Shown: in pieces, positions 4,055-56,916 of the stretch
Numbering within the stretch: position 1 is the first letter of the stretch
How the letters are laid out: each line of letters begins with the position of its first letter
Origin: Candidatus Dormiibacterota bacterium
GTDB taxonomy: Bacteria; Chloroflexota; Dormibacteria; Aeolococcales; Aeolococcaceae
Direction of reading: 5' to 3'
NCBI GenBank assembly: GCA_003162415.1
Contig: PMOL01000005.1
Coordinates: 124,001 to 188,000 of the forward strand
DNA length: 64,000 bases
Notes under the pieces: generated by a model
The model's database searches: none
The model's input: the letters and a program-made list of their open reading frames with translations, nothing else
Told to the model about the DNA's origin: nothing
Program-made: the position numbers and the translations under genes

Positions 4055-4636
4055 TCAGCTCGATAGATCTCGGCAGGAACATTCGGAGGGGTCCATGAGG
4101 CTCTCGAGGCCGAGACGAAGCCCGGCGAAGTCAGGACAACCGCCTGGCCAAAGACGAACGATCGTGCCGAGCGGCGTATATGGTTCGTCCGCGGAATACA
4201 TGGTCCCCATGAGGATTGCGCGATCGGTTCCATCCAGCCAGTTGGACACATGTGGGTCGACGATGACGGTGTCTCGTGCATCCCACACGACTGTGGCCTC
4301 TGACATCCATTGAGACAACAGTCCAGGACCATCAGCATATGGTCCTAGCATGTGCAGGTCTCGATCGAGCAGCGTTCCGCGTGTCTCGAAAATGAGGATG
4401 TTCCGATCGGCTGGGTGGGCATCGAACTTCTCGAGCGCACTGTCGAGATGGCGGTGGAATTCGCTGCTCAGCATTTGGAAAGCATCCGTCTCACGGGAAC
4501 TCCCAGGTTCGAGCGTGTAATCCCAGAGCCATGGCTCAACGTGCGACCAGTCGTCACCGATACGTGAGATACGATAGCCGGGAAGTGGCTCGAAGTGCTC
4601 AGGCAAGGTTCCGTCCCGCACCCCGCTACGAATCAC
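4055..4636 (-). CDS. Unknown protein, last gene of the restriction-modification operon
   Basis: The GTG at 4636 overlaps the upstream stop by 4 bases (GTGA), giving 193 residues and tight coupling to the nuclease-like gene before it. The frame is open a little further upstream (to 4708), but only inside the preceding gene. Visible text includes FEPLPGYRISRIGDDWSHVE, ILIFETRGTLLDRDLHML and LWPGGCPDFAGLRLGLESL; there is no recognised catalytic motif, signal peptide or membrane segment. Because two short genes abut, they might descend from one split protein. Its role in the RM-type locus is unknown. Confidence 0.65.
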   Translation of the reverse strand: MIRSGVRDGTLPEHFEPLPGYRISRIGDDWSHVEPWLWDYTLEPGSSRETDAFQMLSSEFHRHLDSALEKFDAHPADRNILIFETRGTLLDRDLHMLGPYADGPGLLSQWMSEATVVWDARDTVIVDPHVSNWLDGTDRAILMGTMYSADEPYTPLGTIVRLWPGGCPDFAGLRLGLESLMDPSECSCRDLSS

Positions 4637-30905: not shown

Positions 30906-31617
30906 GTGAGGTGGCGCTGCGGAAGAGATGCCCGTCCGACCCGGTGGACGTCAGGTCGACGTTGCGCCTTGCCGCCAAGACGAAAGTGGCGAGCTCCGAC
31001 ATACACCGGCGTCTTATGTAGCCTTCATCAAGCGCTCGCTGGCGCAAGAAGCGCGACGCGAGAAGGCTGACGTTGCAGAAAGCAACGCCTGGGGGTTGCA
31101 CCGGGACCACGGTCCCTCATTGACCCCTCGCGCCATGGCGGAATGCTCGCGAGGCCCTCAGGTATCCAGCTCTAAAGTTCCCAAGTGGCGTCTTCGCACA
31201 CACCAGCGCGTAATCTCACTCGGTGCTGGTGCAAGGTTTCATCGATCGGCTTTGCAGGGATGGGGGTGCGGTGTGGGTGGTCGACTGCAAGACCAACGAT
31301 CGCTCGGCGCCGAATCGCTGACGGGGTACGGGCGGGCTCGCCATCTACCAGCGGGCCGCGAAGGAGGGGCTAGGTTTGAACGCCGCCGGCGTTTGGTGGA
31401 GATGCGGACCGGTGCGGTGCATCGCGGGGAGGCTCAGCACCGGCGGTGCCACCGCGCTCGGGATGTGCGTCTTGGCGATCCTGGCCGTCGTTCGACGCGG
31501 ACAGGATCGAGCCGAAGGAACTGCCCCACCGAGCGGCAGCCAGCTCGCTGCCGATTGCGACACCCTGAAGTCAGGGCGACCGAGGATCCAGCTCATCGAA
31601 AGGTGACGCTCGGAGGT
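30906..31617. other. Gene-poor region with a nuclease remnant
   Basis: Apart from the decayed RecB-type fragment at 31223-31402 no gene is supported. Long frames on the plus strand here are Arg-rich and have no start signals. Confidence 0.5.
31223..31402 (+). pseudogene. RecB/PD-(D/E)xK exonuclease remnant with in-frame stop
   Basis: Plus-strand reading from 31223: VLVQGFIDRLCRDGGAVWVV then DCKTNDRSAPNR, stop, then GGLAIYQRAAKEGLGLNAAG. This is the core of AddA/RecB-type nuclease domains: G-x-I-D, a strand ending D-x-K-T, then a helix with Q/L-x-x-Y-x-R-A. The catalytic D and K are still readable, but the stop after NR and missing flanks show decay. It is probably a leftover of a helicase-nuclease or Cas4-like gene. 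Confidence 0.6.
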
Positions 31618-31712
31618 GCGAGGCGCTGCCTCGCAGCGCTAGGGGACTCCTGTCGCCATGTAATTGTGGGTCGACTGACCTGAGATGGTCGGGCTCACGT
31701 GGAGGTCCTCAA
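31618..31712 (+). promoter_or_regulatory. Conserved leader, copy 1, upstream of a small secreted protein
   Basis: About 95 bases nearly identical to 32233-32328: GCCTCGCAGCGCTAGGGGAC, then GTCGACTGACC and GGTCGGGCTC, ending at GGAGG 7 bases before an ATG. A small hairpin GACC/GGTC (31677-31690) is kept in both copies. It could be a shared promoter with operator or a structured 5' leader. Confidence 0.6.
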
Positions 31713-31928
31713 ATGGACGCGATCTGCATGGGTTGGAACCAAACGACGCGACGTGTTGTTGCCGGCATCGTCTCCGTCATAGCGGTGGCGCTCCTCGCGG
31801 GCGGAACCGCGACAGCGGCGCCTCGCGCGACATTGGAGAACTCTGCGCAGCAGGCTTCGAACCTGGTGGCGAGCAGCAGCTACTTTGGACAAGCTCGTAC
31901 CACTGCTGGTTATATTCCGGGACTCTGA
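31713..31928 (+). CDS. Small secreted peptide 1 (71 residues)
   Basis: ATG 31713 with GGAGG 7 bases upstream. A basic N-terminus and hydrophobic segment (VVAGIVSVIAVALLAGGTAT) form a signal peptide with probable cleavage after TATAA, leaving about 35 residues (ENSAQQASNLVASSSYFGQA). No family recognised. It is followed within 15 bases by a 13-bp-stem terminator hairpin and preceded by the duplicated leader, so it is an independent mini transcription unit. Confidence 0.65.
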   Translation: MDAICMGWNQTTRRVVAGIVSVIAVALLAGGTATAAPRATLENSAQQASNLVASSSYFGQARTTAGYIPGL

Positions 31929-31941
31929 CCGACTCTGTTCG

Positions 31942-31973
31942 CGGGCGGCGGATCCGGTTAGATCCGCCGCCCG
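31942..31973 (+). terminator. Strong hairpin after small secreted peptide 1
   Basis: A perfect 13-bp stem CGGGCGGCGGATC / GATCCGCCGCCCG with loop CGGTTA, 13 bases after the stop codon. There is no T-run, but the stability suits a high-GC terminator. Confidence 0.75.
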
Positions 31974-32232
31974 TTGGCGCGATCCGCAGGTACGCGACAG
32001 CGTCGCGAACCGCGACCCGGGCCAGGTGCACGCAGCGTCCGGCGGCGCCCGAGGTGTGTGCGACCCGATGGGTCGAGGTCCGAATATGTGGGCTGCCGGC
32101 AGGCGACACCCTGAGAGGCAACCGCGCACGCAGCATCGTCGCTGCCGTACCCGCAGCGGTCCTCGAAGCGCAACGGCGACGAGCCCTCCGACCGGTGGCC
32201 ATACCCTGGCGTGCCGTGCATCCTGCAGATTC

Positions 32233-32328
32233 GCGCGGCGCCGCCTCGCAGCGCTAGGGGACTTCTGGCGCCACAGGGTTGTGAGTCGACTGACCTTGAG
32301 AAGGTCGGGCTCCACGGAGGCACCAGAC
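32233..32328 (+). promoter_or_regulatory. Conserved leader, copy 2, upstream of a second small secreted protein
   Basis: Aligns with copy 1 almost base for base from GCCTCGCAGCGCTAGGGGAC to GGTCGGGCTC, with few substitutions and short gaps. The hairpin is better here (GACCTT-GAG-AAGGTC, 32292-32306). It ends at GGAGG 8 bases before ATG 32329. Confidence 0.6.
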
Positions 32329-32538
32329 ATGGAAGCAGGGCTCGCGGTCAACAGGTTCCCCGCACGGGCGGTCGCGGTTGTCGCCACACTCTTCGCCGGA
32401 CTGGCGATCGGTGGGTCGCTCGGTTACACGATCAAGCCTACGACGGACGTCGTGGTGACGCACAGCACTTCGCCGGTCGTGCAGCCAGCTCCGATCAGTG
32501 ACACCTGTATCTTCGTGGATCACCACAAGGGCTGCTGA
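32329..32538 (+). CDS. Small secreted or anchored peptide 2 (69 residues)
   Basis: ATG 32329 with GGAGG 8 bases upstream. A hydrophobic helix (AVAVVATLFAGLAIGGSLGY) is followed by a Thr/Val/Pro-rich stem and a short Cys loop at the end, CIFVDHHKGC, which could form a disulfide ring and bind metal through its two His. Despite the shared leader, the sequence is not clearly homologous to peptide 1 beyond the hydrophobic segment. A terminator hairpin follows. Confidence 0.65.
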   Translation: MEAGLAVNRFPARAVAVVATLFAGLAIGGSLGYTIKPTTDVVVTHSTSPVVQPAPISDTCIFVDHHKGC

Positions 32539-32550
32539 TCCGCTCGGATT

Positions 32551-32580
32551 GGGGAGACCGGGAGCCATCCTGGTCTCCCC
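32551..32580 (+). terminator. Hairpin after small secreted peptide 2
   Basis: A perfect 9-bp stem GGGGAGACC / GGTCTCCCC around a 12-base loop, 12 bases after the stop codon. No T-run. Confidence 0.7.
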
Positions 32581-32656
32581 ACGGGTGCGCTTGCGCGCAT
32601 CCGCTTAACACTTGGCCACCTGGACCCCGCTATCATCGACTTCAGGAGGAAGCGAT

Positions 32657-32971
32657 ATGCCCAACAGCCCCCAGGGTGCGGCTCAGGTCCCGCCACCGGC
32701 GTTGCGGTGCTCGCACATCCACAACACCGCCGAGGTCGCGCCAACCAGCATCAACCCGGATCCGGCGTGCGACGGCCAGTGCAGGTTGCTGAGCGGGCAC
32801 CCACACACGGGAGCGCGAAAACACGTTTTGGCCTTGCTGGGCGCGGAGGCCGGACCCTCCCTGGACCAGGAGGTCTCGGAATTTAAGGGTGTCTGGGAAT
32901 ACGACCCCGGCGCGTGTTGCAAATGCTCGAAGTGCAAAAAGTGGGTGAGGGATTGGTCACCTACCCACTGA
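32657..32971 (+). CDS. Small Cys/His-rich protein, possible metal-binding
   Basis: ATG 32657 with AGGAGGA 6 bases upstream gives 104 residues. Cys and His recur: ALRCSHIHN, DPACDGQCRLLSGHPHTG and CCKCSKCKKW near the C-terminus, suggesting zinc binding. There is no signal peptide. Its end overlaps by 11 bases the convergent end of the 1258-residue regulator. It could be a third member of the small-gene group, though it lacks the shared leader. No family recognised. Confidence 0.6.
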   Translation: MPNSPQGAAQVPPPALRCSHIHNTAEVAPTSINPDPACDGQCRLLSGHPHTGARKHVLALLGAEAGPSLDQEVSEFKGVWEYDPGACCKCSKCKKWVRDWSPTH

Positions 32972-35900
32972 CGAGAGTCCATCGCGTCGGCTCCGGCGGG
33001 TCATAGACGCAGAAGGTCCCCGTGCGCACCGATCGCCGCAGGTGACGTCCGAATGCCTCGTGTGCGGCCTCGGCGCGGGAGATGGCGTCGCGAATCCTCC
33101 ATGTCACCGCCTTGCGGGCCCGCTCCGCCGGGTCAATCGCCAGACGTGTGCGGCCATGGAGTCCCACGGCAGACCGCAACTCAGCAATGAGAAAAGCGCG
33201 CTCGTCGCGCGCTCGTTCCGCACGCAGCGGGTCGTTTGCCGCGTCCGCGTCGGTCACATCTTCCTCGAGCTCGAGCAGGCGTGACCGGTACTGCTCTCGT
33301 GCTTCGGGATCGAGCATGGCGCCTGCGTCGCGCTCGATCCCGAAACCCTGATCCGCAATCCCGCTGAGGCTGCCGCGGGTCGGAGTGCGCGCTGCCATGA
33401 GATCCACAGCGGCGATCTCGGTTCCCTCGATCGCCATCAACCGCGCTATGTCGTGGAGGCCCTTGGTGTCCTTCAGGCGCGACGTCGTCCCGCCGTAGCG
33501 CACCGACCAGAAGTCGCCTTCGAGGACGAATGCGTTGCCCGTCTCCGTTCGGGCGGGCTCGGAGACATTCGCCGGTGGCGCTGGCTCCCCTGGCCAGATG
33601 CTGACCCGCCGGCGCAGCCGCACTTCCCCTCCCCGCGCCGGATCGGTGTCCGCCAGCTGCCGGGCATCGAGCCATGTTCGTGCCTGGCCAGACATGGCCT
33701 CGCTCGCGAGAATCTCATTCGCATCAGCCGCCGCGAGCAACGAGGTCGCGTCAGCGACCGCCGCGGCAACGCCTGCGCTGACCTGCATATCGAGCAAGGT
33801 CCCCTTGTCACGTAGCCCGAGTGCAAAACGAAGCGCTCTGGTCCACGTGTCGTCGGTGCCTCCGAAATCGAATGCGGCGGTGAGTCCATCCGAGGCGCCG
33901 ATCGTTGCACCCTGCTGCCGCCGTGCCTCACGCTCGCCCCAGGCGCGCCAACGATCCGTGGGGACAGCGTTGAATGCGCGTGCGGCTACGGTTACCATCG
34001 CATCGCGCTGCTGTCGTGCAAGTGCGTGCGCAGGCGACGCGACGGGCGTCGGACTGGTGGCTGCAGGCGCGGCTCCCGGAAGATGCAGCTCCGCATGGGT
34101 TTCGCGGGCGATGCGCGCGATGAGCGCAAGGCCCGCCCGCCCGGCATCGGCGGATGCGGTTGCCAGCTCCTGCGCTGCCGCGTCCGTCTGTCCGGCGGCC
34201 GCACGAGCACGCGCGAGCAGGATGCGGGTCCACAGCTCCTCCCATCTGCACCTGGCGTGCGCGAACGTGGCTGTGGAGTGTTTGAGGACGCGGATCGCGT
34301 CCTTAGTCCGCCCCGACTGCAGCGCGACCACGCCCTCAGCACGCTCCCGATACGGCTCTCGGGCAGGGCCGGCGAAGTTGCGCCTGCTGGAGAGAAGTTG
34401 CTCGGCCTCGTCCGGTCGCATGGCGGCGACGAACGCGCGCACGCAGGCGTCAGAGACGACCGCACCCACGTCGGTGCCGCTGAGGATGGCGAGCGCCTCA
34501 TGGGCCTTGTCGGCGGCGGACGCGGCATTGCCCTCAACGATGTCGAGCGTGACGGCGAGCGGGAGGAGCAACTCCACCATCGCTGGGCTCGCCGACTGGA
34601 CTGGAGGGAATAACGAGTGAGCCGCGACGAGCTCATCGGTGGCCAGATGAGCGGCTGCGCGCAGCAGCGTCGCCTCCTCGGCGATCTGCTCTTGTCCGGC
34701 GCGACGAGCCAGCTTCTGCGCGCCCTCCAGGAGCGCCACACACCGTGCCACGTCGCCCTGATCGAACGCGACAGTCGCTTCAATGCACCCGGCCACCGCC
34801 TCATCGGCAGGAGACATCCCGGGCACCCTGCGAAGTCTGTTGAGCAAGGCTGATATCTCGCCCAAGCGCAGGGAGCGGATCAGGACATCCATCTCCAGGC
34901 GCAGCGCTGCCGCTGCGATCCAGTGCATCTGCCTCGCCTCGGCCTCGTCACAACTGCGCTGCAGCACCTCGAGACCTGCATTCGTGGCCGCGTCCTCATC
35001 CGCCGTTGCCGCGCCAAGGTATGCACCTGCCCATATCCTCACCGCATCAGCGTTGGCCGACTCGGCCGCGACGATCGCGTGGCGCGCCATGGACATGGTC
35101 CCAGCGTCGTCACAGCGGCTCCATCGAAGGCGCGAAAGCCTCAGGTACACCATGGCCAGGTCCTCGCTGGCGCCGAGTGGCGTGAGAATCGCGAGCGCGG
35201 CAAGATACTCCGCCTCTTCCTCGACGCCGCGACCCTGGTCGTGCAGGCATCCCCCGAGCAGGTGTCTGCATCGAGCCACCAGCGCCTCGTCATCGCTCTG
35301 CACGAGGACACTGATCGCCTCGTGCAGGCAGCGTTCCGCGGCAGCCGGTTGGCTACTTCGCCACAGAGACTCGCCGAGTCGACATAGCACACGCCCTCGA
35401 AGCGCCGGGTCACTGATGTGCGGGAGCACACGCCGGTAGACCTCGACAGCGGTCATTGCCGCGAAGTTCGTCATGGCTTCCTCTGCGGCCATCATCAGAA
35501 CCGGCACAGCGTCTTCGATCCGGCCTCCCCGCAAGAGGTGGCTTCCCACCTCCACGGCGGACGCCTGTGCGTCGCTTAGGACACCGGCCACGCGAAGGTG
35601 CAATTCGTCACGATTCGGCGAGAGGATCTGGTCGTACACGGCTTCCTGTATCAGCGCATGGCGGAAACGGAAGGTCCCATGTGCGTCCGCGTCGGGCTCG
35701 AGCATTTGATCCTTGACCAATTCCTCGAGCGCGGAGCGGACCGCGGCGTTGCCGAGATCGGTGATGGCTGCGAGCACCGTGTAGCTGAAGGATCGTCCGA
35801 GCACCGAGGCTGCATACAGCACCGAAGCTCTCTGCTCGTCGAGCCGGTCCAGACGCAGCAGCACAACCTCTGCGACTGCCCGTGGAATCCGGAGCTGAGT

Positions 35901-36737
35901 CAGCGGCTTACGGTCCCAGCCATCCTCAGAGCGAAAGATGTCGCCGCGGTCGATCGCCTCACGGAGCATTTCCTCGAGCGCGAGCGGGCTGCCCTCGGTG
36001 CGCTCGTAGATGTAGTCGCGAAACTCCTCGGACACCTCGTCGTCGAGAATCGCCCGTGACATTGCGCGCACATCGGTACGTTTCAGCGGAGCAATCTCCA
36101 CGAACTCAGCGAGGGCGCCTCGACGCCATCCGTGTACTGTCGAGCGCAACGGGTGACGGCGGTGCAGCTCGTCGCTGCGATACGTCGCGAGCACGAGAAG
36201 GGGGAGGCTCGGCGCGCGTCGCGCAAGATAGTCGACAAGCTCGCGCGTCGCGGGATCGGACCATTGCAGGTCTTCGATGATGAGCAGCAACGGACCGCCG
36301 TCACCGAGCGCGCACAAGAGCATGACGATGGACTCGAAGAGGCGGAGCGTGCCGTCGCCACCTGGGTTGTGTCCTACCGCAGGAGGATCGGCCTCCAACT
36401 GCGGAAAGAGACGACCCAGCTCGGTGGCCGCAGGTCCCAACGACTTGCGTACGCGTGCAAGGTCGGAGCGTGCGAGCTGATTGCCGGCTGCCTCGAGCAG
36501 CGGCAGGTACGGGATCGCGACGTCCGTCGGCGCACAGCCGCCGCGGAGTGTCGTGAAGCCGAGTTTGGCGGCGCGCCCCTGAGCTTCGCTGGTGAGGCGC
36601 GTCTTGCCCATCCCGGCATCTCCCGCGATGACCACACAGCGACCGTCCGCATGGGCGGCGTCGATCAGCGCGTCCTCGATGGTTGCCAGCTCGGATTCGC
36701 GGCCGACCACGATCGGACAGAGGGTTCGCTCTGTCAC
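32961..36737 (-). CDS. Large AAA/STAND-type ATPase with TPR-like repeats, probable regulator
   Basis: 1258 residues. An N-terminal ATPase has Walker A GDAGMGKT (39-46) and Walker B LLLIIEDLQWSD (150-161), typical of the ATPases fused to LuxR regulators or adenylate cyclases. A long alpha-helical TPR-like middle follows (about 400-950). Near the C-terminus FVLEGDFWSVRYGGTTSRLK with KGLHDIARLMA is a block seen in many soil-bacterial proteins of this kind, after which a helical tail replaces the usual HTH. It therefore probably senses a ligand and signals by protein contact rather than binding DNA itself. GTG 36737 is the first in-frame start after a stop. Confidence 0.88.
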   Translation of the reverse strand: MTERTLCPIVVGRESELATIEDALIDAAHADGRCVVIAGDAGMGKTRLTSEAQGRAAKLGFTTLRGGCAPTDVAIPYLPLLEAAGNQLARSDLARVRKSLGPAATELGRLFPQLEADPPAVGHNPGGDGTLRLFESIVMLLCALGDGGPLLLIIEDLQWSDPATRELVDYLARRAPSLPLLVLATYRSDELHRRHPLRSTVHGWRRGALAEFVEIAPLKRTDVRAMSRAILDDEVSEEFRDYIYERTEGSPLALEEMLREAIDRGDIFRSEDGWDRKPLTQLRIPRAVAEVVLLRLDRLDEQRASVLYAASVLGRSFSYTVLAAITDLGNAAVRSALEELVKDQMLEPDADAHGTFRFRHALIQEAVYDQILSPNRDELHLRVAGVLSDAQASAVEVGSHLLRGGRIEDAVPVLMMAAEEAMTNFAAMTAVEVYRRVLPHISDPALRGRVLCRLGESLWRSSQPAAAERCLHEAISVLVQSDDEALVARCRHLLGGCLHDQGRGVEEEAEYLAALAILTPLGASEDLAMVYLRLSRLRWSRCDDAGTMSMARHAIVAAESANADAVRIWAGAYLGAATADEDAATNAGLEVLQRSCDEAEARQMHWIAAAALRLEMDVLIRSLRLGEISALLNRLRRVPGMSPADEAVAGCIEATVAFDQGDVARCVALLEGAQKLARRAGQEQIAEEATLLRAAAHLATDELVAAHSLFPPVQSASPAMVELLLPLAVTLDIVEGNAASAADKAHEALAILSGTDVGAVVSDACVRAFVAAMRPDEAEQLLSSRRNFAGPAREPYRERAEGVVALQSGRTKDAIRVLKHSTATFAHARCRWEELWTRILLARARAAAGQTDAAAQELATASADAGRAGLALIARIARETHAELHLPGAAPAATSPTPVASPAHALARQQRDAMVTVAARAFNAVPTDRWRAWGEREARRQQGATIGASDGLTAAFDFGGTDDTWTRALRFALGLRDKGTLLDMQVSAGVAAAVADATSLLAAADANEILASEAMSGQARTWLDARQLADTDPARGGEVRLRRRVSIWPGEPAPPANVSEPARTETGNAFVLEGDFWSVRYGGTTSRLKDTKGLHDIARLMAIEGTEIAAVDLMAARTPTRGSLSGIADQGFGIERDAGAMLDPEAREQYRSRLLELEEDVTDADAANDPLRAERARDERAFLIAELRSAVGLHGRTRLAIDPAERARKAVTWRIRDAISRAEAAHEAFGRHLRRSVRTGTFCVYDPPEPTRWTLVSG

Positions 36738-56508: not shown

Positions 56509-56916
56509 TGAGGCCACCTCCCTGAGACTTACGAATCACCGGTAGCCCGGCTGGCTGATTCAGCCCCGTGGCTTTGCGTCCCCGCCTCGCGGCGGGTTTG
56601 CTCTATCGACGTGAATCGACTGTACGTCTCGCTAGCACCCCGAGTCTACCAAGTTTGTGCTGTGGGGCATCGGCTCCGATCCCGTGTACCAGCGCCGACG
56701 CTCTGACCCCTCTATGCCTTCCATCTGAGCGGCGGTGTGCCGACCGCAGCGACGCGTCCCGAATCCATTGGCGCTCCACCCAGCGGCGGGTCCTCAAGCG
56801 ATTCCGCCCAGTGCATAGAGTGGTGAAGCGCAAGACCATGCTGATGGTCGCACGCGTCGAGGACTCGCGCGGCTCTTGTATGAGTTGACCAAGCTCTAGG
56901 CGGACGATTCAGCGAG
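56509..56916. other. Gene-free stretch
   Basis: Upstream region of the beta-helix gene. No supported frame, repeat or hairpin. Confidence 0.4.

Follow-up and report, generated by a model that had tools for sequence, protein, structure and literature searches.

In a Candidatus Dormiibacterota contig, within a stretch of 64,000 nucleotides that we call the window, two short genes lie one behind the other on the forward strand, each preceded by a copy of the same leader. The leader copies, at 31618-31705 and 32233-32320, are about 80% alike overall, with 84% identity across their first 64 nucleotides and 94% across the next 16 after a 1-nucleotide shift. The initial annotation had located this duplication correctly, and only its wording, "almost identical," was somewhat strong. 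Local alignment of the pair gave a score of 55, against a maximum of 16 among 1,000 random window pairs. The likeness runs to a GGAGG motif (31701-31705 and 32316-32320) and ends at the start codon. As annotated, each leader leads through GGAGG and an ATG into a short reading frame, which we call ORF1 (31713-31928, 71 amino acids) and ORF2 (32329-32538, 69 amino acids). The two coding sequences do differ, as had been pointed out, their DNA alignment score of 10 falling among those of random pairs, and the 300 bp 5' of each leader show mutual similarity no better than chance. A genome-wide search for further leader copies, which the initial annotation had proposed, found two in total and no third; all genomes compared in this work are draft assemblies. 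A larger, transposon-like duplication was considered and set aside, there being only two genomic copies with unrelated flanks.

The part of each leader that follows the operator described below spans 31658-31712 in copy 1, presumably as promoter start region and 5' untranslated region (UTR), and 32273-32328 in copy 2. No sigma-70-like promoter and no clear -10 element were found there. A strong GC hairpin follows each reading frame, with a perfect 13-bp stem after ORF1 (31942-31973, forward strand) and a 14-bp stem after ORF2 (32550-32581, forward strand). These had been called strong terminators; the hairpins are present, but they lack a T-run and a consensus scan scored neither, which leaves them as possible terminators. 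Upstream of the first leader, a short, stop-interrupted frame at 31220-31400 reads LVQGFIDRLCRDGGAVWVVDCKTNDRSAPNR and is perhaps the remnant of a nuclease-like gene.

Downstream, ORF3 (32657-32971, forward strand, 104 amino acids, with a Cys-containing C terminus and without a Pfam match) sits between ORF2 and a convergent gene on the reverse strand (32961-36737) encoding a STAND-type regulator of 1,258 amino acids. ORF3 is kept beside the STAND gene in the sister species. The large protein has an AAA_16 match (E value of 9.6e-26) and a weak TPR_12 match, at 23.1 bits against a gathering score of 30.1; TPR_12 exceeds the gathering score in the corresponding neighbors in genomes G022 and G028. 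Its C-terminal domain is shared with genes beside the operators of relatives. No recognizable DNA-binding domain, SARP included, was found in the window's STAND protein, and Pfam gave no match to an OmpR-type or BTA domain in it (to an E value of 1) or in the relatives' neighbors (E value of 0.001). A single-sequence structure model of the C-terminal domain, of low confidence (pLDDT of 55), hints at strands, helices, and a final strand pair, and a profile of the domain found only two weak matches among solved structures (E values of 0.08 and 0.11). The initial annotation had compared the payloads with bacteriocin, pheromone, or toxin families; none of the eight window genes scanned was a maturation, processing, transport, export, or immunity gene of the kind that accompanies a bacteriocin or RiPP precursor. 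Farther along the window, at 56537-56611 on the reverse strand, there is a c-di-GMP-I-GGC riboswitch aptamer that scores above the Rfam gathering score.

ORF2 belongs to a class-wide family of small proteins with a single membrane segment, which Pfam and NCBIfam searches did not recognize. A single-sequence search found full-length matches in other genera, with E values down to 1.2e-4, and a profile that includes ORF2 itself matched in 29 of 110 genomes, although its weaker hits have only the N-terminal anchor in common. Members mostly start with M[EQ]A and have a single hydrophobic segment and a variable tail; a subset ends in C...K[GA]C, and ORF2 itself ends in CIFVDHHKGC. Both products had been described as secreted by a signal peptide. 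ORF1 does have a signal-peptide-like N terminus, but ORF2, judged by eye and by the family alignment, appears to be membrane anchored and not cleaved or secreted. No homologue of ORF1 was found, and its similarity to the anchor profile of the ORF2 family is no more than faint. Because its leader and first codons match those of ORF2, ORF1 is possibly a diverged or replaced duplicate of it.

Within the same bacterial family, ORF2 homologues lie directly 3' of STAND-type ATPase/TPR genes in G007 (three loci), G022, and G028, and some of the STAND-type neighbors of ORF2 homologues carry a LuxR-type helix-turn-helix (HTH). By inspection, strong AAA_16 matches in large proteins number roughly ten per genome, and from these match counts we judge it unlikely that the repeated adjacency arose by chance.

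Comparison of leader copies in same-family relatives yielded a 40-bp core, (GCNAG-N7-CTNGC)-N3-(GCNAG-N7-CTNGC)-GCC, that is, two 17-bp inverted repeats with centers 20 bp apart (about two helical turns), followed by GCC. Both window copies, on the forward strand, have one mismatch to the pattern. Copy 1 (31618-31657) consists of the palindromes GCGAGGCGCTGCCTCGC (31618-31634), followed by AGC, and GCTAGGGGACTCCTGTC (31638-31654), followed by GCC; copy 2 (32233-32272) consists of GCGCGGCGCCGCCTCGC (32233-32249), again followed by AGC, and GCTAGGGGACTTCTGGC (32253-32269), again followed by GCC. We aligned eight elements, a ninth (G028:C101) sharing its core with G022:C184. Conservation falls on the four half-sites, A18, and the GCC, and the spacers vary. 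Among the 32 half-sites, GCCAG (15) and GCGAG (8) dominate, and the positions are nearly invariant. The palindromes of single sequences are of modest significance (P values of 0.02 to 0.05, and 0.56 for G007). The operator is well supported, and we infer its binder. The conserved leader can also be read by eye as a minus-strand coding remnant (frame WR[QE][EK]SPSAAR); we rejected this, as the operator pattern accounts better for the conservation.

Nine core copies were found, at eight loci. Seven of these loci, the window included, adjoin a STAND-type (AAA_16) gene with the distinctive C-terminal domain, a domain present in only 11 of the 32 genomes of the family at a stringent cutoff. A small gene adjoins the regulator gene, in adjacency and not demonstrated control, in the window, G007, G022, G028:C101, G009, and G002:C148. 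The core recurs 5' of ORF2 homologues in G007:C59, G022, and G028:C101, the last two loci being near-duplicates, and the payloads behind it range from membrane proteins ending in KGC or RGC to a charged protein of 73 residues and a Gly/Trp-rich, Cys-ending peptide of 32 residues. The sister species G002 shares with the window a syntenic STAND gene (83%) and ORF3, up to a break of synteny just upstream of ORF3, at window position 32622. The element at that syntenic locus has diverged in sequence with its architecture exact, and it precedes the different, small charged protein of 73 residues. G002 also has an orphan core copy at another place. In a direct DNA search of relatives, G002:C15 was the only real leader match; most hits, on reading the sequences, looked like chance matches within coding genes. 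Two core copies have no clear payload, G002:C15 and G028:C32, the latter a one-mismatch copy after a disrupted reading frame that ends in the shared C-terminal domain. At the other fetched loci of the C-terminal domain family there was no good core copy, with three mismatches allowed.

We scanned the class for the pattern with at most one mismatch and found matches in 16 genomes; at this setting, the pattern was not commoner across genomes than a reversed-pattern control. The pattern alone is thus not rare, and the argument for an operator relies on location and on exact matches. Exact matches are found at G009:C319, in G022, at G028:C101, at both G002 loci, and at one place in G102. The perfect copy at G009:C319 is independent of the derivation of the pattern. 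A STAND gene 40% identical to the window's is about 340 bp downstream of this copy, which directly precedes a 32-codon reading frame, MTGFSQVECSGQGFVGGWGFVGGWGYTTGWGC. In our extract of this locus (L182), this Gly/Trp-rich, Cys-ending frame is on the reverse strand at about 4364-4462, between the operator and the STAND gene. A sequence-only model built from six copies (R1) rose clearly above noise, among the 110 genomes, only for its own source leaders.

The initial annotation had taken the leader for a selected, shared element with variable payloads, regulatory in itself or as RNA. Selection on a shared element with variable payloads is supported and proves to be general, in that the same 40-bp core recurs before different tiny genes in relatives. 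The version in which the leader acts as RNA, as a 5' UTR whose two hairpins control translation or termination of the small gene, fared worse, and we consider it rather unlikely. In its favor, a hairpin can form at each palindrome, the fold of copy 1 is somewhat better than those of shuffled sequences (z score of -1.9), and one pair, columns 3 and 15, exchanges G-C for C-G. Conserved leaders with small hairpins before the start codon are likewise seen in the cis-regulatory RNA families of Rfam 15. However, shuffled versions of copy 2 fold just as well as copy 2 itself (z score of 0.1), Rfam 15 gave no gathering-level match in the region, and its weak matches miss the leaders. The covariance analysis that had been suggested showed covariation barely above shuffles (31 of 500 reach it) and none for the palindrome 2 hairpin alone. 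Pairs are broken where the half-sites remain valid, such as GCCAG facing CTCGC in G002:C148, and the loops are unconserved. Unlike the Rfam families, the element follows a half-site logic. Because half-sites mix freely, spacers are unconserved, covariation is weak, folding is unremarkable, and Rfam is empty here, we favor the view that the element works as a tandem palindromic DNA operator rather than as an RNA leader.

The explanation that we lean toward, if by a modest degree, joins the duplication, the conserved operator architecture, its association with one regulator subfamily, the variable payloads, and the ORF2 family into a STAND-linked promoter module with a tandem operator and swappable tiny payloads, in a layout like that of AfsR-AfsS; the binder, activation, action as DNA, and membrane topology are presumed parts of it. 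The leader would be a promoter region carrying the tandem operator and would drive tiny genes beside the gene for a STAND-family AAA_16 regulator. Most likely, the regulator or a DNA-binding partner would bind the four half-sites cooperatively, and binding would activate the small gene in the way that AfsR activates afsS. Duplication of the operator and start region has given the window two units, presumably under common control, one with the putatively membrane-anchored ORF2 and its Cys-ending tail and the other with the diverged or replaced ORF1. The products would be held in the membrane, their tails facing outward.

In Streptomyces, AfsR is a large SARP, an activator with NOD and TPR domains, which activates afsS from a repeat operator that overlaps a weak promoter (PMC10936776). 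The repeats of this operator are direct, are spaced at 11 or 22 bp, and stand 8 bp from the -10 element (PMC10936776). Here too, a gene for a STAND/NOD-type ATPase regulator lies beside a small gene with a repeat operator and, presumably, a weak promoter, control being presumed in our case. In contrast, we found no OmpR-type or BTA domain in the module, the half-sites are inverted with a 20-bp center spacing whereas AfsR uses 11-bp direct repeats, and the payload varies in sequence, being either a membrane-anchored protein or a tiny peptide. By analogy, the module resembles AfsR-AfsS in layout without being assigned as a member of that system. The operator heptamer of PimR-type SARP-LAL regulators is CGGCAAG (PMC5930380), and our half-site GCNAG resembles the GCAAG within it. 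The repeats of both are spaced at about whole helical turns, and in both a single target gene, a presumed one in our case, adjoins the regulator. The PimR-type operator has direct repeats, whereas here there are tandem palindromes, and the regulator is without a recognizable SARP domain.

Our literature searches found no description of this module. Dormibacterota, an uncultured phylum, are soil bacteria mostly known from metagenomes. For them, the module provides something concrete in an operator that is now defined, a candidate for its regulator, and a family of small membrane proteins carrying a C-terminal Cys motif; it also opens to testing the question of what large STAND-type regulators sense and control outside Streptomyces.

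Alternatively, an unrelated dimeric regulator, with its gene elsewhere, might bind the operator, and the STAND gene would then be a mere neighbor or itself a target; we regard this as a minor but real possibility. Many dimeric regulators suit palindromic sites, the window's STAND gene has no recognized DNA-binding domain, and in G009 both the STAND gene and the peptide lie downstream of the element; yet the tight link to one STAND subfamily, across genera and in several gene orders, argues against this reading. It is very improbable, in our judgment, that the core is a recombination or cassette site behind whose constant end small genes are swapped in. The differing payloads behind one core, the break of sister-species synteny just 5' of ORF3, and the orphan copy elsewhere in G002 would suit such a site, but the genome has only two copies, no recombinase came to notice in the inspected stretches, the similarity of the window copies continues beyond the palindromes as far as the start codon, and an ATG stands at promoter distance from most copies. 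The STAND-linked promoter module might also serve peptide signaling with interchangeable signals. The STAND regulator would then be the receptor for the neighboring Cys-terminated product, in an autoinducing operator loop, and the peptide would diversify between strains; we hold this to be quite doubtful.

Outside the window's bacterial family, ORF2 homologues have other neighbors. A GerE-NHL regulator lies near the homologue in G050, G062, and G098; in the extracted loci L120 (2209-3519), L122 (7112-8488), and L126 (3850-5394), genes near ORF2 homologues encode an N-terminal LuxR-type HTH fused to NHL beta-propeller repeats. The neighbor of the homologue in G015 is an MFS transporter with a cNMP-binding domain. 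At three loci from other families (L078, L079, and L096), we noticed by eye, 5' of the ORF2 homologues, AGGTA-type direct repeats about 12 bp apart, followed by GTAGTTC-CCCGATG.
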